Of a DNA stretch of 11,025 nt, positions 1,819-11,025 are shown one piece after another. Origin of the DNA: Dehalococcoidales bacterium. GTDB taxonomy: Bacteria; Chloroflexota; Dehalococcoidia; Dehalococcoidales; UBA5760. Position 1 is the stretch's first letter, and every line of letters begins with the position of its first letter. The position numbers were made by a program, and so were the translations under genes. The notes beneath the pieces were generated by a model that had not been told where the DNA came from, ran no database searches, and worked only from the letters and a program-made list of their open reading frames with translations. The DNA is taken from positions 1 through 11,025 of the forward strand of contig JAGYOC010000113.1 in assembly GCA_018399795.1 (NCBI GenBank). Direction: 5' to 3'.

Positions 1819-2619
1819 TCATCTGCTCACCTGACACATGTAATCTGCAAGCTTCCGGTAACTTTCGATGGCATCACATCGAGGATTGTAGCTGAAAATC
1901 GACTTCCCCTCATGCCAGGCTTTGGCCAGGTCGACCCTTTTCCGTATCTGCACTTCGGTCATCACTTTCCACCCAGCTTCTGACTCCCGCTTCTCCTGTA
2001 ATTCTGCCAGGACTCTTCCCGAAACCGAGTTAGAAGTCACCATATTGGGCACGATAGCCACAATTTCGATATCAGCATCCAGGACATCTTTCAACTCCCG
2101 CATCTCGGCCTCCAGTGTCTCTATGCCCCGGATTGACGCATCCTCGGCTTGAACTGGCACGAGCACCCTCCTGGCGGCAAGGAGAACGCTATCTGTCACG
2201 ATATTAACCGTAGGGGCTGAGTCTATCAGGCAAATTGCCCAATCGGCGCCGAAAGCCTCAAGCAATCTCTTGAGTCTGCTTTCACCTGCTCTCTGCACGA
2301 CCAGTTCGTCTTCGAGCCGGATGAGCGACTCATGCGCCGGCATTACCCAGAAATTCTCCACCGGTGTGATGAAACCTCTTATCTGCTCCACAGCCCCCCT
2401 TAATATAAGGTCAGCAAGAGGAAAATCTTTGCGTGTATATATGGCTTTAAGGCCGCATCCTGCCGTCAGGTGCCCCTGCGGGTCAAAATCCACAAGAAGA
2501 ACCTTTCGCCCCTTTTCGGCAAGCGCCGCTCCAAGATTTATCGTGGCGGTCGTCTTGCCCACTCCTCCCTTGGGGTTAGCTACTGCCAGGGTATATCCCT
2601 GTCCTTGTCCGGTTACCAT
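1819..2619 (-). CDS. ParA/Soj-type ATPase
   Basis: A 266-residue ParA-family ATPase. The deviant Walker A KGGVGKTT is at 17-24, with the signature Lys two residues in from the motif start. Walker A-prime VDFDPQGH is at 43-50, and Walker B CLIDSAP at 130-136. The fold continues with VLVPVQAEDASIRGIETLEA at 152-171 and AIVPNM at 188-193. ParA proteins cycle on the nucleoid and move or space cargo such as plasmids, carboxysomes or chromosomes. No ParB gene or parS-like repeats are visible here, which argues against a plasmid partition cassette. Inside a gvp operon, between gvpK and gvpL, the likely job is positioning or segregating vesicle clusters; this is inference. The start overlaps gvpK by 44 bases, suggesting coupled translation. 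Confidence 0.95.
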   Translation of the reverse strand: MVTGQGQGYTLAVANPKGGVGKTTATINLGAALAEKGRKVLLVDFDPQGHLTAGCGLKAIYTRKDFPLADLILRGAVEQIRGFITPVENFWVMPAHESLIRLEDELVVQRAGESRLKRLLEAFGADWAICLIDSAPTVNIVTDSVLLAARRVLVPVQAEDASIRGIETLEAEMRELKDVLDADIEIVAIVPNMVTSNSVSGRVLAELQEKRESEAGWKVMTEVQIRKRVDLAKAWHEGKSIFSYNPRCDAIESYRKLADYMCQVSR

Positions 2620-2941
2620 TTTCCCGCTCTTCAGGTTCCTCCTGCCACTTCTCCGGGTTGATTAGTCTATCTATGACATCATCTACAATGTCGTCCAGCC
2701 CATCCCTCACTGTCCGAACTGACTCACTTATGCCTTGCTCTTCTTTTATTTCTTCAAGGGCAATGTCGAGGTCCATCAGGGCTCTTCCCAACCGCTCACA
2801 CTCCTCCTCCGTTAAGGCCCCGCTCTCCATTCTCTTTAATGCCTGGATTTTGAGAGCATCTCTGATGACCTCAACCACAGCCAGAACCAGCCCCAACACC
2901 CCATGCTTTAGGCTTTTCTCATCGACGTCAACCACAGACAT
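2576..2941 (-). CDS. gvpK: Gas vesicle protein GvpK
   Basis: A 121-residue GvpK family protein. The conserved core is present: LKHGVLGLVLAVVEVIRDAL at 11-30, QALKRMESGALTEEECERLG at 33-52, LMDLDIALEEIKEEQGI at 55-71, and VRDGLDDIVDDVIDRLINPE to 97. GvpK is essential for assembly in clusters where it has been tested. The ATG at 2941 is chosen because it lies two bases after the preceding stop and begins the conserved part; an upstream in-frame ATG at 3022 would put 27 unrelated residues inside the Hsp20 gene. The last 14 residues overlap the start of the ParA gene by 44 bases, and that tail (NGNRTRTGIYPGSS) is not a known GvpK feature, so the C-terminus may have grown by loss of an earlier stop. 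Confidence 0.93.
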   Translation of the reverse strand: MSVVDVDEKSLKHGVLGLVLAVVEVIRDALKIQALKRMESGALTEEECERLGRALMDLDIALEEIKEEQGISESVRTVRDGLDDIVDDVIDRLINPEKWQEEPEERENGNRTRTGIYPGSS

Positions 2942-2943
2942 AT

Positions 2944-3468
2944 TTACCTTCCCTTCTTTAGACGCACTTCCAGGATTCCGTTGCGGCAGGCCGTTTTCAA
3001 AGTCTCCCCCTTCACCTGACAACCAAGCTCAATCTCCTTCCGGTAGCTCTTGGCGGCAGTTGTCCTGGTAGACAGGGAAAGGATGTCACCGGTAGCCCTG
3101 AGCTCCAGGTCTACCAGGTCAACACTGGGCACCTCAGCTATGACTACGACCTCTCCGGACTCGTGGAAAACGTCCACCTGTGGTTCAACCACTTCGGCCG
3201 CGTTTGTCTTTTTGGCACCTCTCCGTTTCGTTAATGGCCCGTCACTTCGTGCGTGCTGCGTGCTGGCTCCCGTGAATCGGCGATTGATGCTTGTCCCTCC
3301 CCTTCTCCACTCCTCATTGCTTACTACTTCACTCCCACCAGCCTTCTTTAACTTTTCCCTGAGTTCCTCAAGCTGCTCTCTCGCGCCTTCCGGGGAGGAG
3401 AGAAGCTGCCCCAAGTCTATGTTCAGGCCCAGAAAGTCAGCCTTGCTGTCTCTGCCATCCTCTGTCAT
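2944..3468 (-). CDS. GvpH-type Hsp20 small heat-shock-like protein, copy 2
   Basis: A 174-residue protein. Residues 12-43 (LGLNIDLGQLLSSPEGAREQ and on) are amphipathic and recall the N-terminal part of the first GvpH. A low-complexity basic linker with Ser/Thr/Arg covers 45-92, and an alpha-crystallin-like domain covers about 96-174, with PQVDVFHESGEVVVIAEVP, GDILSLSTR and the closing NGILEVRLKK. It lies between gvpJ and gvpK, much where gvpH and gvpI lie in the haloarchaeal gvpFGHIJKLM series, so it may be the true positional GvpH. AGGAGG precedes the ATG by 5 bases or so. Its stop lies two bases before the gvpK start. Cys at 150 and 161 in the domain are unusual for Hsp20 but may mean nothing. 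Confidence 0.87.
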   Translation of the reverse strand: MTEDGRDSKADFLGLNIDLGQLLSSPEGAREQLEELREKLKKAGGSEVVSNEEWRRGGTSINRRFTGASTQHARSDGPLTKRRGAKKTNAAEVVEPQVDVFHESGEVVVIAEVPSVDLVDLELRATGDILSLSTRTTAAKSYRKEIELGCQVKGETLKTACRNGILEVRLKKGR

Positions 3469-3522: not shown

Positions 3523-3897
3523 TCACTCGGTCGGTATCTCAGAGGGTGCTCTGGATCCATTGTTCCTGACCTTGGCGCTTACCCAACCGCACCAGGGGCA
3601 CCCGTCGTTCAAGAGCTCCTGGGAAGAGACGCGCTTACCACATTGAGGGCACTCCTCTTTACCCACCTGGGCTTCTTTCCAGGCGTCCGTTTCAAGATTG
3701 GTGCCACTGGGGAATTCCAGCCCGTACCTGGCGGCGGTCTCAAAGGAAGCCAGGGCAGCTCTTATCTTGATTCCTAAAAGCTCCACTCCGGCCACCGATA
3801 CGCAAATATCGGCATTAATGACCAGCCCCTTGTCCAGAACGCGGTCAATAACATCGGCCAGACCAGAGACTTCGTCCTTCGTTGCTTGCAGTGGCAT
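3523..3897 (-). CDS. gvpJ: GvpJ with an added C-terminal zinc ribbon
   Basis: A 124-residue GvpA-family protein. Residues 11-70 match GvpJ closely: LADVIDRVLDKGLVINADI, then SVAGVELLGIKIRAALASF, then ETAARYGLEFPSGTNLE, the last being a phrase typical of GvpJ rather than GvpA. GvpJ is a minor protein that helps determine vesicle shape and nucleation. Beyond the usual domain, residues 83-103 form a four-Cys zinc ribbon (CPQCGKRV at 83-90, CPWCG at 100-104), and the tail NNGSRAPSEIPTE looks disordered. GvpJ normally ends in an acidic tail without Cys. The start ATG follows GGGGGTG and lies four bases after the gvpG stop. The stop precedes the second Hsp20 gene by 54 bases. Zinc binding is inferred from Cys spacing. 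Confidence 0.92.
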   Translation of the reverse strand: MPLQATKDEVSGLADVIDRVLDKGLVINADICVSVAGVELLGIKIRAALASFETAARYGLEFPSGTNLETDAWKEAQVGKEECPQCGKRVSSQELLNDGCPWCGWVSAKVRNNGSRAPSEIPTE

Positions 3898-4902: not shown

Positions 4903-7041
4903 CTATTCGCCTCTCTGCCTTTTTAGCCAGTCCATAGCCAGTTTAAAATGCTTCCGGGAAATTTCCAGTTTATCGCCTCGCCGCTCACCCTGGACAGATT
5001 CCCTGATGGCGACCAATGAAGCCTCACGGCAAATAGCCTCAATATAAGAGCCGGTCAAGCCTTCTGTCTCCTGGGCCAGCAGCTGGTGGTCGACATCACT
5101 CGCCAGAGGCTTTCCTTGAGTGTGAACTATGAATATTTCTCGCCGTGCCCTTTCATCGGGCAGCGGAAACTCCAGAATGAAATCAAATCTGCCCGGCCTC
5201 AGGATGGCCGAATCAATCAGTTCCATCCGGTTGGTGGCGGCCACGACCAGCGCTCCTTTCAGCTCCTCCAGACCATCCAATTCGGTCAGGAACTGGCTTA
5301 TCGCCCTCTCCGTAGCCTGAGAGTCCCTGGCCAGTCCCCGCTCGGGAACCAGCGCGTCAAACTCATCGAAGAAAAGGATACACGGGCTTGCCTGTTTAGC
5401 TTTTCGGAATACCTCCCTTACACCCCGCTCTGACTCGCCAACATACTTTGACATCAGCTCCGGCCCCTTAACCGAGATGAAGTTGACCTCGCTCTCGTTG
5501 GCCAGGGCTTTGGCAACCAGGGTCTTTCCTGTCCCCGGCGGCCCGGAGAGAAGAATGCCTTTCGGCGGATTGACCTTTGCCTCGCGGAACAGCTCAGGAT
5601 ATTTGAGCGGCCATTCCACCGCCTCCGCCAGCTTCTGTTTCACCTCACCCAGGCCCCCTACGTCCTCCCACTTTACGTTGGGCACCTCGACAAAGACCTC
5701 ACGAATCGCAGATGGCTCTATCTCCTTGAGAGACTCAGTGAAGTCAGCCATCGTCACCTCAAGCTTGAGCAGCGTTTCGTAAGGAATCTCATCTAACTGG
5801 AAGTCAATGCCGGGCATAATCTTTCGCAGGGCATTCATCGCCGCCTCGCGGCACAGGGCCTCAAGGTCGGCGCCGACAAAGCCATGGGTAATTTGAGAGA
5901 GCCTCTCCAGGTCCACATCTTGGGCCAGCGGCATACCGCGCGTGTGGATGTGAAGAATCTCGATACGCCCCCTCTGATCAGGGATACTGATGGCAATCTC
6001 CCGGTCAAACCTACCTGGACGACGGAGCGCCGGGTCAAGCGAGTTAGGAATGTTGGTGGCGCCGATAACAATTATTTCTCCTCGTGACTCCAGCCCATCC
6101 ATGAGCGCCAGAAGCTGGGCAACCACTCTCCTCTCCACCTGCTTTTCCCCACCCATCTCCTCTCTCTTGGGGGCAATGGCATCGATTTCATCGATGAAAA
6201 GAATAGCTGGCGCATTGGCTTTCGCCTCTTCAAAAACCGCTCTGAGGCGGCCTTCACTCTCCCCGTAGAACTTGCCCATAATCTCCGGGCCGGTGATGTG
6301 CGTGAAGTAAGCCGCCGTCTCTTCAGCGACGGCGCGGGCAATCAGTGTTTTGCCGCAGCCGGGGGGACCATGGAGCAGCACTCCTTTGGGGGGGTCTATA
6401 CCTAGGCGCTCGAATACCTGTGGGTATTTCAGCGGAAGCTCGATCATCTCCCTGACCCGCTGCAGTTCCTTTCCCAGCCCACCGATATCCTCGTAGGAAA
6501 CCTTAAACTCCCTGGCCTTGGCTTCCCCCTTTTCCGCAACCTCGATTCTCGTTCTGGAATGTACCAACACTGCTCCTTTGGGAACGGCGCTGACAACCAC
6601 GAAATCCTGGCTTCGCGTGCCGAAAAGATTGGCTCTTATCGTATCCCCCTCAACCAGAGCCAGCCCATCTAGCAGGGTACCGATATATCTGGCATCTCTT
6701 TCCCGGCTGATTAATCTGCTCAGCGTTAGGGGACTCAACACTATCTTGTCAGCTGGCAGGCAGCTGGTTTTTTGCACGTTTACCTTCTCGTCCAGCGAAA
6801 CCTGGGCATTGCCCCGCACAAGCCCATCCATCTGGATGAGGGACTTGCCCCGGTCCTCGGGATAGGCTGGCATAATCTTGGCGACGGTGTTTCGTTTGCC
6901 CTCAATCTCGGTGACGTCTCCCACCTGGGCACCCAGACTTTCCAGGTCCTGCGGGTCAATCCGGGCAATTCCCCGTCCCACATCCTTCGGTTTTGCTTCG
7001 CTAACACGAAGGGTCAGCGACTTGACATCAGTGGTCACCAT
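4903..7041 (-). CDS. Cdc48/VCP-type double AAA+ ATPase
   Basis: A 712-residue protein with the full Cdc48 plan. The N-domain (1-175) has the double-psi barrel pattern ([19 protein letters not shown]). D1 has Walker A GPPGCGKT at 225-232, Walker B ILFIDEID at 280-287 and an arginine-finger region RRPGRFD at 340-346. D2 has GPPGTGKT at 500-507, ILFFDEFD at 555-562 and RPGRFD at 615-620. The D1 pore loop reads KFYGES (257-262), aromatic as in archaeal VAT rather than the KLAGES of eukaryotic p97; D2 reads KYVGES. Cdc48 proteins thread and unfold substrates by ATP hydrolysis. No proteasome-docking HbYX tail is present (it ends KRQRGE). The gene lies 16 bases after gvpH and directly abuts gvpF. 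The ribosome binding site (GAAGAG) is weaker than its neighbours'. A role in vesicle assembly or disassembly is inferred from position. Confidence 0.95.
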
Positions 7042-7607: not shown

Positions 7608-8513
7608 TCAAAAGTATACAGCAAGGGCTTCATCTATCACCCGCCTTACCTCTTCTCTCTCCTGCCGAGGCACCTCGGGCATCAAGATGTCGAGACAGGT
7701 CTGCCTGAAGGCGTGCTTGCTTCCAAACTCTGTCTCTCCCTTTAACTTCAAAATCTTGCCCATCACGATGCAAGCTCGCACCGTTGGCGTGAGCTTATTT
7801 GATTTGGCCTCTCTGACCTTGCTTACCAGGCTGACAATACGCCGGCCTTCCTCAAGGGAAACCCCAGACTTCGCTTGAGTGATAGCAACCTCGGTCTCTT
7901 CATCAAAGTTGTCTAACTCTATCGTTACCATACGGTCGCGTAGGGCGTCCTGACTTTTATAAACCCCGGCATATTCCTCTGGATTAGAGGTGAATATGGC
8001 GGTGAAGTTGGGGTGCACCTTCAGGTAACTTTTGCCGCCTCTGGCAGCGGGAAGGGGGAGAATTCTCTCTTCGAGCACTGAAAGCAGGATGTTGTTCGCC
8101 TCCGGATGTGACCTGGTGGACTCGTCGTAGACCAGGGTGAACCCATACTGACAGGCAGTGGTAAGGCGGTTGTCGATCCAGTGCGATGTTATACTCTCAT
8201 CGGTCTTCAGCACCGAGCGGATAAAATTATCCTTCAAGTATTTCTTGCGGTATCCGGAAAGCCTGCCAACAAGGTCAGAGCTGTTAAACTCGTGGTCTCC
8301 GTAGATAAGCACCGCCGGCTTACCTAACTGAGCGGCCACGTGTAGAGCCAGGGTAGTTTTTCCCACCCCGGCTGGACCAGCGAAATGCACCGGGAAGCCT
8401 GCCCTGATATAATCAAGGACTCGGTTAGTGAGGCCCTTTATATAAGGTGTTTCGACAAAATCAGCACCGGGCTTGACACTAAGCGTCGTTGCCAGCTCAG
8501 TTTCTGTGTTCAT
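7608..8513 (-). CDS. gvpN: Gas vesicle AAA+ ATPase GvpN
   Basis: GvpN is a MoxR-like AAA+ ATPase needed for normal growth of gas vesicles. With the start at 8513 the product is 301 residues. Walker A GPAGVGKT is at 46-53, Walker B FTLVYDES at 124-131, and the sensor-1 region FTSNPEEYAGVYKSQDAL at about 174-191 is a GvpN hallmark, followed by Arg residues (RDRM) in the position of an arginine finger. A C-terminal helical lid follows. The start is placed at the ATG preceded by GGGAG with 8 bases spacing; an ATG five codons earlier (8528) is possible but has no near ribosome binding site. Its stop lies 13 bases before the GvpH start. The assignment is secure, and only the exact start is open. 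Confidence 0.95.
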   Translation of the reverse strand: MNTETELATTLSVKPGADFVETPYIKGLTNRVLDYIRAGFPVHFAGPAGVGKTTLALHVAAQLGKPAVLIYGDHEFNSSDLVGRLSGYRKKYLKDNFIRSVLKTDESITSHWIDNRLTTACQYGFTLVYDESTRSHPEANNILLSVLEERILPLPAARGGKSYLKVHPNFTAIFTSNPEEYAGVYKSQDALRDRMVTIELDNFDEETEVAITQAKSGVSLEEGRRIVSLVSKVREAKSNKLTPTVRACIVMGKILKLKGETEFGSKHAFRQTCLDILMPEVPRQEREEVRRVIDEALAVYF

Positions 8514-8537
8514 TGCCACTTCTCCCATAATTTCAAA

Positions 8538-8937: not shown

Positions 8938-9837
8938 TCACTCGCCGGCTACCGGATAATAAAGCTTCTCTTCCTTGCGGATTTTGCCTTCGTCAAGCAG
9001 TCTCCTTGATGCCCGCCCGAGAACTACCGGAACAACACCCAAGGTCTCGGCAACCTTCGCCAGGGTTATTCCATCGGGATGATCGTTGATGGCCGTCAGC
9101 AGCTTAATTTCCAAGTCGGGGACTTCCTCCTCCACTGGCGGGACTTCCGCCACTCCAGCCTTCTCTGGCTGGTGCCTCAGCTCCTGCCATGCCGCTCTTG
9201 CCTCATTAATATCAATTCTAAGCTCTGCCTGGGACCTGCGAAACTCGCTCCGCATCCCTTTGACACTGGATTCCGTCTCAGCCCTGGCTTTGGCCAAATC
9301 GTCTCTTAGCTGCTTCCCAGTCTCCTGTCGAGACTTGCTAAGGTCCTTTAGTATGTCTTGGGCACTAGTGAGTAGTTCTCCAACCTCAGATTTGCGGTTC
9401 GACTGGCTCTGGGCCAAGTCCTTCCTCAGCTTACTGCTCGCTTGCTTCCGCTGAGACCCGAAGCCTTTGATGGCTTCCCGGGCGTCTCCTAGAATTGTGT
9501 TGACACTAGACCTGCGCTCGGCTGACCCCTGGGCTAGTTCCTTGCGCAACTGAGCACCCTGTTCTTTCCGTGATGTCTGAAAGCCTTTTATGAGCCCCTG
9601 CGCATCCCCTAGCACCGCTTGGACCGCTGATTTTCTGCTTGCTTTGTCCTGGGCCAAGTCCTTCCTTAGCTTAGCCCCTGCCTCTGCCCGCGACGCTTGA
9701 AAGCCTTTTATCAACTTCCGAGCATCGTCGGTTGCATATTTTGCCTCTTCTTTCACTTGCTTGACCCAGTCCATTCTCTCCTCCCTTGAAGAGGCGATAT
9801 CCTGAATCAAATCCTTCATTGCAGTACCGATTCCCAT
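8938..9837 (-). CDS. GvpC-like repeat protein with C-terminal winged-helix-like domain
   Basis: A 299-residue protein in three parts. Residues 1-37 hold a leader similar to that of the preceding coiled-coil protein. Residues 38-197 are four tandem 40-residue helical repeats, each with an IKGF-like start, an SR pair, a central KLRKDLAQ-type block and a final RKS..V.. helix. Residues 198-217 continue as helix, 218-240 are an acidic Pro/Glu linker, and 240-299 resemble a winged helix (LEIKLLTAINDHPDGITLAK, then a helix ending RRLLDEGKI and a short strand YYPV). GvpC proteins also have tandem helical repeats (about 33 residues in cyanobacteria) that lie across the GvpA ribs and stiffen the vesicle; the position after gvpA fits this. 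The winged-helix part is not a usual GvpC feature. The ATG at 9837 follows GGAGGAGGGT. Homology to GvpC proper is inferred from architecture, since the repeat length differs. Confidence 0.7.
   Translation of the reverse strand: MGIGTAMKDLIQDIASSREERMDWVKQVKEEAKYATDDARKLIKGFQASRAEAGAKLRKDLAQDKASRKSAVQAVLGDAQGLIKGFQTSRKEQGAQLRKELAQGSAERRSSVNTILGDAREAIKGFGSQRKQASSKLRKDLAQSQSNRKSEVGELLTSAQDILKDLSKSRQETGKQLRDDLAKARAETESSVKGMRSEFRRSQAELRIDINEARAAWQELRHQPEKAGVAEVPPVEEEVPDLEIKLLTAINDHPDGITLAKVAETLGVVPVVLGRASRRLLDEGKIRKEEKLYYPVAGE
9247..9726 (-). repeat. Four tandem 120-base coding repeats in the GvpC-like gene
   Basis: Four in-frame units of exactly 40 codons: 9607-9726, 9487-9606, 9367-9486 and 9247-9366. 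The register is visible in the DNA as GGGCCAAGTC-like blocks at 9291, 9411, 9531 and 9651 on the plus strand, 120 bases apart. The first three units are most alike; the fourth has drifted (KDL in place of KGF, DDLAKA in place of KDLAQ). Each unit may itself be two related half-helices, since an SR pair recurs about 18 residues apart. Confidence 0.9.
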
Positions 9838-9863
9838 ACCCTCCTCCTTTTTACAATTTGCAT

Positions 9864-10547
9864 TTAGTACCGCCGGTGGCGACCAATGTCTCGCCGCTGC
9901 CGACCAAAGCGGGCCAGCAGCCTTTCCACTTCCTGCCGTCGCAACTCTCTGCCGGCCTTTCGCTCTTGACCGGCTTGGGCCGCCTCAAGCTGCCTCAAGT
10001 CTTCCAGCCCTAAAAATTCTCCTCTCTCCACCAGTCTTTGCAGCTTATGATTTATTTCCTCCTGCTCCATCCAAAAGGAGTCGAGCCGCAACTGGAACTC
10101 ATGGAAAAGGGAAAAAACCTGCTGACCTTTGTCCCGATAAGCAGTTCGAATCCTAGCGATTGTTGCCTCAAGAGCCTCTTTACCTGCCTCATCATAGGTA
10201 AAGTTTACCAACTGTTGCCGCAAAGAGGTTACCAATTCCTTCTGCTTGTCCAGATATCTTTCCAACTCCTGCTTAACACGCTTGCGCTCTTCTTCGATCT
10301 CCCGTTTCTTCGTCTCCGATTCAGAAATAATCCTCTCCATTAGCAGGTCAAAGTCTTTCCTTCGAAGAGAGCAATTACTAACCAATATTTCTCGTAAGCT
10401 GGCCTTTAACCCTGCCCTCTTCTCAGCAACTTCAGCTAAACTTTCGTTAAGACTTGCTGTCGCATAATAGAATTCGGTAACCAACTCTTCTACCAGTGAC
10501 ATTCTATTTTCGTAAGAGCTGATGAGGTCTAAAACCAAGTCTTTCAT
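9864..10547 (-). CDS. Coiled-coil protein of the gvp operon, function unknown
   Basis: A 227-residue highly charged protein predicted to be nearly all helical. Residues 70-115 are a dense Glu/Lys/Arg region that should form a coiled coil (REIEEERKRVKQELERYL and neighbours). A second helical part covers 120-215, and the end is very basic (RFGRQRRDIGRHRRY). No enzyme motif, signal peptide or membrane segment is seen. The start ATG at 10547 is chosen because GAGG lies 6 bases before it and because the first 30 residues closely match the start of the next protein (MKDL..D..SS...RM..V, then YAT). A longer frame running back into gvpA is not supported. It may bind the vesicle surface or scaffold assembly in the manner of GvpC, but that is inferred from the shared leader and position only. 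Confidence 0.75.
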   Translation of the reverse strand: MKDLVLDLISSYENRMSLVEELVTEFYYATASLNESLAEVAEKRAGLKASLREILVSNCSLRRKDFDLLMERIISESETKKREIEEERKRVKQELERYLDKQKELVTSLRQQLVNFTYDEAGKEALEATIARIRTAYRDKGQQVFSLFHEFQLRLDSFWMEQEEINHKLQRLVERGEFLGLEDLRQLEAAQAGQERKAGRELRRQEVERLLARFGRQRRDIGRHRRY

Positions 10548-10565
10548 TTCATCCTCGAGTTCAGG

Positions 10566-10626
10566 GAGGGGACAGGCTTGGCAGGCACGCTTAGCAGAGC
10601 TAAGGGTACTCTGGCAAAATCCCCTC
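10566..10626 (-). other. Nested inverted repeat in the gvpA downstream spacer
   Basis: The 88-base spacer between gvpA and the next gene holds a perfect six-base stem CTTAGC/GCTAAG with a three-base loop (10590-10604). It lies between a perfect seven-base pair of arms, GAGGGGA (10620-10626) and TCCCCTC (10566-10572). No U-run follows the stem, so it does not look like an intrinsic terminator. It could be an RNA structure that stabilises the gvpA message or gives partial attenuation, which would fit the need for far more GvpA than downstream proteins. This role is inference. Confidence 0.45.
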
Positions 10627-10635
10627 GCCTCAGTC

Positions 10636-10845
10636 CTAAGCTTCGGCCGGAGCGGTAAGTCCAACTGCCTCGGCATACTTCAAGTAGGTCTCAACACCGG
10701 CAATGACCACTCGAGCCTCAACAGTAAGGACTTCTAGTCCAAGCAGGGAGACTCTGACCCAGGCATCTACGACGATGCCCTTGTCCAGAATCCTGTCAAG
10801 AACCTCAGCCAATCCTGAAGGCGCCATCGAAGTCTGTACTGCCAC
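10636..10845 (-). CDS. gvpA: Gas vesicle structural protein GvpA
   Basis: GvpA is the small hydrophobic protein that polymerises into the ribbed wall of the gas vesicle. The 69-residue product is close to the usual 70 or so. It carries the family signature almost without change: [19 protein letters not shown] at residues 12-30, then the two-strand hairpin [20 protein letters not shown] at 31-50, then [13 protein letters not shown] at 51-63. The start is GTG with AGGAGG upstream; it overlaps the regulator stop by one base. It differs from the GvpJ and GvpM paralogues in this window by lacking a long tail and by keeping the Trp-29/Arg-31 region typical of the main shell protein. Identification is very secure; whether other gvpA copies exist elsewhere in the genome cannot be seen. 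Confidence 0.97.
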
Positions 10846-11025
10846 TAGCTTTCACCTCCTTCCTTTTCAGATTCGGACGGAAAGAGCGATCCCCTGAGCG
10901 GTATGTTGTTTCGCTCAAGGAAGGCCCTGAAGTCCTCAGTGTGAACACGATAATGACCGCTGGGGAGCCTAAATCCGGCTAGTTTGCCATCTCTAATCCA
11001 CCGGCGAACTGTAGTCCTACTTACC
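10845..11025 (-). CDS. Helix-turn-helix DNA-binding protein, excisionase/MerR-like, C-terminal part
   Basis: The last 59 residues of a protein whose start lies beyond the right edge. It begins [15 protein letters not shown], followed by a PSGHYRV stretch and [15 protein letters not shown]. This is the pattern of the excisionase/MerR-type winged helix (HTH type 17): a recognition helix, a wing with a Gly-His-Tyr-Arg turn, then a closing helix. A short charged tail, ESEKEGGES, ends at a TAG codon. The final G of that TAG is the first base of the gvpA GTG start, so the two genes overlap by one base and are very probably translated from one message. The inferred role is a transcriptional regulator of the operon, possibly autoregulatory. 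The missing N-terminus might hold another domain such as a receiver. It is too short to tell a phage-type excisionase from a dedicated gvp regulator. Confidence 0.8.
10855..10860 (-). promoter_or_regulatory. Ribosome binding site of gvpA
   Basis: AGGAGG on the minus strand, 9 bases before the GTG start of gvpA and inside the last codons of the regulator gene. It supports the GTG start over the internal ATG six codons later. It also shows that gvpA has no leader of its own inside the window. Confidence 0.75.

Follow-up and report, generated by a model that had tools for sequence, protein, structure and literature searches.

GvpC is usually described as a protein that stiffens the gas vesicle shell. 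In Anabaena flos-aquae it is a predicted long repeat helix, encoded after gvpA and before gvpN in the order gvpACNJKGFVW, and the available text of PMC10185304 gives it five repeats plus short termini only, so that this GvpC carries no winged helix. According to what is accessible of PMC9994262, a 33-aa repeat spans four GvpA subunits spaced by 12.1 Å, and Glu52 and Glu59 are the numbers of the GvpA residues reported to contact GvpC. On the Halobacterium plasmid pNRC100, where gvpA, gvpC, gvpN and gvpO are followed by a ParA gene, GvpC has Halo_GVPC repeats, an acidic linker and a C-terminal domain which matches ROS_MUCR (E 1.9e-6, over the Pfam cut-off). The available text of PMC9372576 describes repeats of 38-40 aa and a globular tail, a zinc finger, which forms dimers. 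GvpN and GvpO are bound by this tail, and it also makes contacts to GvpF, GvpH, GvpI and GvpL; between GvpA and GvpC no contact could be seen with the assays used there. A DNA-binding-type GvpC tail therefore has a published role in protein contact, at least in the accessible part of that source. Another shell component of a protein organelle with a C-terminal HTH-type domain is EutK of the ethanolamine microcompartment, a BMC-domain protein without such repeats. The role of its HTH tail is undemonstrated as far as PMC5821096 is available; upon deletion of eutK, most Eut microcompartments were polar, and a ParB-like role has been suggested by the authors (PMC12487888, accessible part).

A literature search retrieved no paper joining gas vesicle, GvpC and winged helix, and those joining gas vesicle, GvpC and helix-turn-helix dealt, judged by their listing, with Serratia regulators, a Halobacterium review and a genome comparison. 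No title on gas vesicle positioning was among the matches listed for vesicle placement and sharing at cell division (ParA, McdA and nucleoid included). The locus described here indicates that Chloroflexota appear to coat gas vesicles with a long rod protein ending in a fold usual in DNA-binding proteins, and through this tail the vesicle might attach to the chromosome or to the machinery that assembles it.

A gvp cluster with a repeat protein at the gvpC position

The repeat protein is encoded in a gvp cluster within the window, i.e., the whole stretch of 11,025 nucleotides that was analysed. All genes of the cluster are on the minus strand, including:

10845..11025, minus strand: partial small HTH gene of the HTH_17 type, directly upstream of gvpA and cut by the window end
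10636..10845, minus strand: gvpA, with Glu52 and Glu59 present
9864..10676, minus strand: second coiled-coil protein, 270 aa, with the same N-terminal motif as the repeat protein; likely start ATG at 10547
8938..9837, minus strand: GvpC-type repeat protein with C-terminal winged helix, ORF of 299 aa
8538..8930, minus strand: 130-aa protein with weak coiled-coil matches only, at the same place in loci L001-L004
7608..8528, minus strand: gvpN-type AAA ATPase (AAA_5, E 5.5e-17), conserved after the repeat protein
2576..3022, minus strand: gvpK
1819..2619, minus strand: ParA-family ATPase inside the gvp cluster

In the direction of transcription the partial HTH gene comes first, followed by gvpA, the 270-aa coiled coil, the 299-aa repeat protein, the 130-aa protein, the gvpN-type ATPase, an Hsp20 and a CDC48-type ATPase (TIGR01243), then by gvpL/F, gvpG, a GvpJ-type protein, a second Hsp20-like protein and gvpK, and at the end by ParA, gvpL/F, another PF00741 protein and gvpO. 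The second Hsp20-like protein has no Pfam match at 0.01 and was tied to the first one by BLAST through relatives. The ATPase at 7608..8528 is presumably GvpN, a name given for its position and for features typical of GvpN, Pfam yielding only AAA_5. The repeat protein is located between gvpA and gvpN with one further gene on each side, as gvpC is placed after gvpA and before gvpN in Anabaena flos-aquae, and the window GvpA possesses both Glu52 and Glu59. The gas vesicle setting, already proposed by a sequence-only reading of this DNA, is supported by this cluster and by its recurrence in other genomes.

A scan of genome contigs with the single protein confirmed no relative, and a profile scan yielded six loci (L001-L006). 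Four of them (L001-L004) keep the order gvpA, 270-aa protein, repeat protein, 130-aa protein and gvpN, and in L002-L004 the small HTH gene precedes gvpA, its L002 counterpart matching HTH_17 (E 3.9e-11). The plasmid collection gave no match.

Several other features of these clusters were observed. An ArsA-type ATPase gene is found just upstream of the HTH-gvpA start in L002 (7517-8494) and L004 (4174-5118), identified by Pfam in L002 only, and another ArsA-type ORF is near gvpN in L073. The CDC48-type double AAA ATPase (window 4903-7041) has a counterpart near Hsp20 and gvp genes in several Chloroflexota loci. The GvpJ-type protein (window 3523-3897) ends in a zinc-ribbon-like CxxC-CxxC tail with a weak DUF7129/rubrerythrin-like match.

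Architecture of the repeat protein

The 299-aa protein is divided as follows:

9721..9837, minus strand: residues 1-39, N-terminal motif MGIG..MKDLIQDIASSREER, conserved family-wide and common to the neighbour gene 9864-10676
9241..9720, minus strand: residues 40-199, four 40-aa helical repeats, from self-comparison and the helix in the AlphaFold2 model
9118..9177, minus strand: residues 221-240, Pro/Glu-rich disordered linker (pLDDT <50 at 220-239)
8941..9117, minus strand: residues 241-299, winged-helix domain, from the AlphaFold2 model and Foldseek

Self-comparison and AlphaFold2 bear out the leader, the four 40-residue helical repeats and the Pro/Glu linker that had been read from the sequence. 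The mean BLOSUM62 score reached 1.155 for a shift of 40 residues and 0.97 for one of 80; in 300 shuffled versions, the best value at any shift from 10 to 120 was 0.15. The 40-mers begin at residues 40, 80, 120 and 160 and are pairwise identical at 9-25 of 40 positions; the repeats had been called exact, which holds for their period of exactly 40 but not for the copies. In the AlphaFold2 model (65-sequence alignment) residues 4-220 form one helix, 220-239 are disordered and the C-terminal domain is compact, with three helices and two strands (mean pLDDT 85.9, pTM 0.29). The repeats are basic, with a net charge of +15 across residues 41-200, and at the N-terminal motif a 53-aa stretch matches the neighbour 9864-10676 (38%, E 2.6e-7).

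With its tandem helical repeats the protein falls into the range of about 33-40 aa expected for a GvpC. The proposed likeness to GvpC stands for position and architecture, but not for sequence: a profile check of the repeats against GvpC families, which had been suggested, found no GvpC model among the Pfam matches of the window protein up to E 10, nor was one among the 25 Pfam families shown of the 246 matched by 65 family members. The alignment with Halobacterium GvpC by hhalign reached a probability of 0.1, i.e., no sequence relation was found. As no GvpC Pfam model matches, the term GvpC-type is assigned here by position and architecture; the sequence comparison to known GvpC covers Pfam and Halobacterium GvpC, the cyanobacterial protein being likened by description. 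From the latter the window protein differs in its period of 40 and in having no Pfam GvpC match. Matches to apolipoprotein, MCE and CCDC90 models were read as generic amphipathic-helix similarity. In layout the protein resembles Halobacterium GvpC, with repeats of 38-40 aa, an acidic linker and a C-terminal DNA-binding-type domain in both, yet the tail is a Ros/MucR-type zinc finger there and a winged helix here, without detectable sequence similarity. The earlier statement that known GvpC proteins are not DNA-binding overlooks this Halobacterium domain.

The winged-helix tail

Structure prediction and a Foldseek search agree with the earlier proposal that the C-terminal segment is a winged helix, the predicted models comprising three helices and a two-stranded wing. 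Many Foldseek matches of the tail are nucleic-acid-binding winged helices, and many, of the MarR/SlyA type and Zalpha, superimpose with an rmsd of about 1.0-1.8 Å over about 55 residues; this family tally is drawn from Foldseek's own list, and families absent from that list may match as well. These proteins have the fold in common with the tail, but here the domain is the end of a rod. O-methyltransferases were matched as well. In those enzymes the winged-helix part serves dimerisation, and the fold alone is therefore no proof of DNA binding. A sequence search of the PDB with an alignment of the tail gave a best E of 0.069, which was of no use.

Assignment of the window tail to the Pfam families MarR and EutK_C did not succeed. 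Pfam MarR scored 14.4 bits for the window protein, below the cut-off of 24.6, and EutK_C (PF16365) was absent from its Pfam matches up to E 10. Among 65 family members, 40 matched EutK_C with E values of at most 1, the best being 7.7e-6, and precomputed annotation with it exists for two relatives (P0031 and P0065). As a MarR-type model, MarR_2, matches nearly as many relatives (36 of 65), EutK_C was rejected as the family of the window tail.

Across the 120 listed close proteins, basic residues are kept on helix 3 and the wing, as expected for a DNA-binding winged helix, at domain positions 36 (119/120), 39 (114/120) and 49 (120/120), position 31 excepted. The average charge is -3.1 for the first half of the domain and +3.9 for the second. 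Given the basic helix 3 and wing, DNA contact by the tail is possible. Position 31, also on helix 3, is basic in none of the 120, but in 21 of 21 divergent coat proteins (2 of 23 were too short to count) and in all but one of the 98 stand-alone domains that were long enough among 104. Helix 3 of the close proteins starts with Pro at 31 (86%), Val or Ile at 32 (99%) and Val at 33 (96%). Judged from these residues, the lack of a basic residue at position 31 might mean either that this lineage binds DNA differently or that helix 3 faces a protein.

Conservation and repeat period

A protein search with a threshold of E 0.01 gave 137 proteins, counting that of the window, and most of the listed ones aligned over their full length. 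Where names were given among the matches listed, these were hypothetical proteins of Chloroflexota/Dehalococcoidia or generic labels. The coat-protein type is real, conserved and unannotated in the source names listed, and it bears a winged-helix tail on a protein that is GvpC-type by position and build. The tail was present in 143 of 143 proteins listed by two full-length searches, both queries of which carried it, so that tailed matches were favoured.

For the 120 listed of the 137 proteins, which the per-protein statistics cover, the strongest repeat lag was 40 in 70, 33 in 41, 51 in 6 and 47 in one, and not significant in two. Members with a period of 33, the period of cyanobacterial GvpC, have seven residues fewer per repeat than those with 40. 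Arithmetic on the published spacing, which is not a binding test, gives a span of 4.7-5.0 GvpA for 40 aa, 3.9-4.1 for 33 aa and 6.0-6.3 for 51 aa; the 47-aa period fits more poorly (5.6-5.8).

Distribution among 393 genomes of one class

The survey covered 393 genomes of the class of G002 (Dehalococcoidales), the genome of locus L002. The family model matched 24 genomes and GvpL/F 28 (27 over the cut-off), with both in 18 (odds ratio about 108, p 3e-19, a p value that is overstated since genomes within a class are related). Among the 28 GvpL/F genomes, gvpA or gvpN could be mapped in 21, the other seven being not fetched or showing neither. Of these 21 genomes, 16 have a winged-helix-tailed protein next to gvpA, gvpN or both, including one with the tail cut by the contig end (G049), one with a broken gene (G085) and two whose contig begins too late for gvpA to show (G010, G146). 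Three genomes (G035, G041, G060) have a tailless repeat-type protein, and in two (G028, G200) no repeat protein was seen beside the gvpA or gvpN; hence, some gvp clusters do without the tail. Between clusters the repeats diverge strongly and the tail stays. In L066, a long gvpN ORF, considered as a fusion or as a sign of a missing GvpC, was put down to a wrong start site; another frame there contains a repeat-type ORF of 124 aa without the tail.

The tail also occurs outside the coat protein. L005 and L006 match the profile over the tail only and have no recognised gvp gene nearby; both encode small proteins (9839-10198 and 1892-2389, respectively) with a hydrophobic N-terminus, a linker and the same winged-helix tail, which suggests that the tail is a portable module. 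A profile search further found 104 small stand-alone winged-helix proteins, and some sources name the forms of 62-69 aa IclR- or Lrp-type regulators. In five genomes (G105, G119, G163, G185, G217) a winged-helix ORF of 62-110 aa adjoins a GvpK-like gene, and these genomes, which are possibly incomplete, yielded no match to GvpA or GvpL/F; given this, the copies beside GvpK may have another job. The pairs of a GvpK-like gene and a stand-alone winged helix (L056-L060) would represent GvpK without vesicles, and in L058 a response-regulator-like gene is upstream of the pair. One stand-alone copy is beside gvpL/F (G320), another has no gvp neighbour (G056).

Possible functions of the tail

From this architecture and gene neighbourhood we infer coating, display and a docking partner. 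The protein would lie as a single long helix along the GvpA ribs and stiffen the shell, each 40-aa repeat (60 Å) spanning about five GvpA subunits, compared to four for the cyanobacterial 33-aa repeat (49.5 Å). The flexible linker would hold the winged helix off the vesicle surface, so that many copies would be exposed on a coated vesicle. The tail would then serve to dock GvpN, GvpK, GvpO or another copy of itself while the vesicle is assembled or its coat polymerises, a role modelled on the unrelated globular tail of Halobacterium GvpC. A GvpC-type coat protein whose winged helix docks other vesicle proteins is the reading which we consider most likely, with about an even chance of being correct, and it is placed above DNA binding because Halobacterium GvpC is a closer precedent, from gas vesicles, than EutK. 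The place between gvpA and gvpN, the 16 of 21 survey genomes, Glu52 and Glu59 of GvpA, the basic repeats, the subunit arithmetic and the stand-alone copies beside a GvpK-like gene count in its favour; against it count that no similarity to known GvpC was seen, that the protein is tailless or absent in five survey genomes, that the copies beside GvpK may serve otherwise and that the assays of PMC9372576 showed no contact of GvpC to GvpA. The start of helix 3, with Pro and hydrophobic residues at positions 31-33, would suit protein contact; the basic residues conserved in helix 3 and the wing would fit nucleic acid at least as well.

Those basic residues lead to a second explanation, which we regard as tentative and rather unlikely, namely that the winged helices displayed by the coat bind the nucleoid at low specificity and thereby spread, anchor or partition the vesicles, perhaps with the cluster-encoded ParA, as proposed for EutK in ethanolamine microcompartments. 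The many nucleic-acid-binding fold matches, the near-invariant positions 36, 39 and 49 and the unequal charge of the two domain halves fit this idea, but the position-31 basic residue of divergent and stand-alone domains is absent from all 120 close proteins. Some relatives match EutK_C, yet the window protein does not, and the phenotype of the eutK deletion with its suggested ParB-like role (PMC12487888) is to be set against a DNA binding of EutK that is itself undemonstrated in the accessible text of PMC5821096 and PMC12487888.

The evidence from ParA is similarly divided. The window ParA shares 36% identity with that encoded next to gvpACNO on pNRC100, which may, however, serve the plasmid, and 77% with the ParA of L075, which is sited between gvpK and gvpL/F. 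Among the 34 stretches that were mapped, L075, from the same genome as L002, is the only one with ParA beside gvp genes. A weak ParA match in L003 sits past a non-gvp gene and resembles a CooC-type ATPase. A recurrent ParA-cargo pair of the McdAB kind was not found, ParA being seen in the window and L075. That the tail generally works with ParA was rejected on this count, some of the clusters being long, though many stretches are partial. For the window ParA, a part in vesicle partitioning is possible.

That the repeat protein acts off the vesicle, as an assembly scaffold or chaperone which shares only the operon, seems improbable; it would agree with the missing GvpC profile match and with a weak similarity to apolipoproteins and generic coiled coils, but not with the gvpC position, the 33/40-aa periods and the GvpA contact residues. 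Still less probable is a vesicle-load sensor, in which free protein would sit on the gvp promoter until vesicles draw it away and thus feed back on transcription, since the winged-helix fold and the regulator names of stand-alone forms are countered by a separate HTH_17-type gene directly before gvpA, by helix-3 residues which, unlike those of a shared operator reader, vary between clusters, and by a 220-residue rod that would be odd for a regulator.

Implications

Two lineages, Chloroflexota and Halobacterium, end GvpC in different folds that normally bind DNA, which raises the testable question whether vesicles are docked to the nucleoid or to assembly factors through GvpC. The family with its repeats of 40, 33 and 51 aa likewise offers a test of whether a GvpC repeat corresponds to a whole number of GvpA subunits. 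It is conceivable, though we rate it as somewhat doubtful, that the coat protein of Chloroflexota vesicles studs them with DNA-binding winged helices and that the vesicles are held on the nucleoid or partitioned by it; haloarchaea may have arrived at this arrangement with a zinc finger of the Ros/MucR type. If true, GvpC would have an overlooked function in tethering a gas organelle to DNA.
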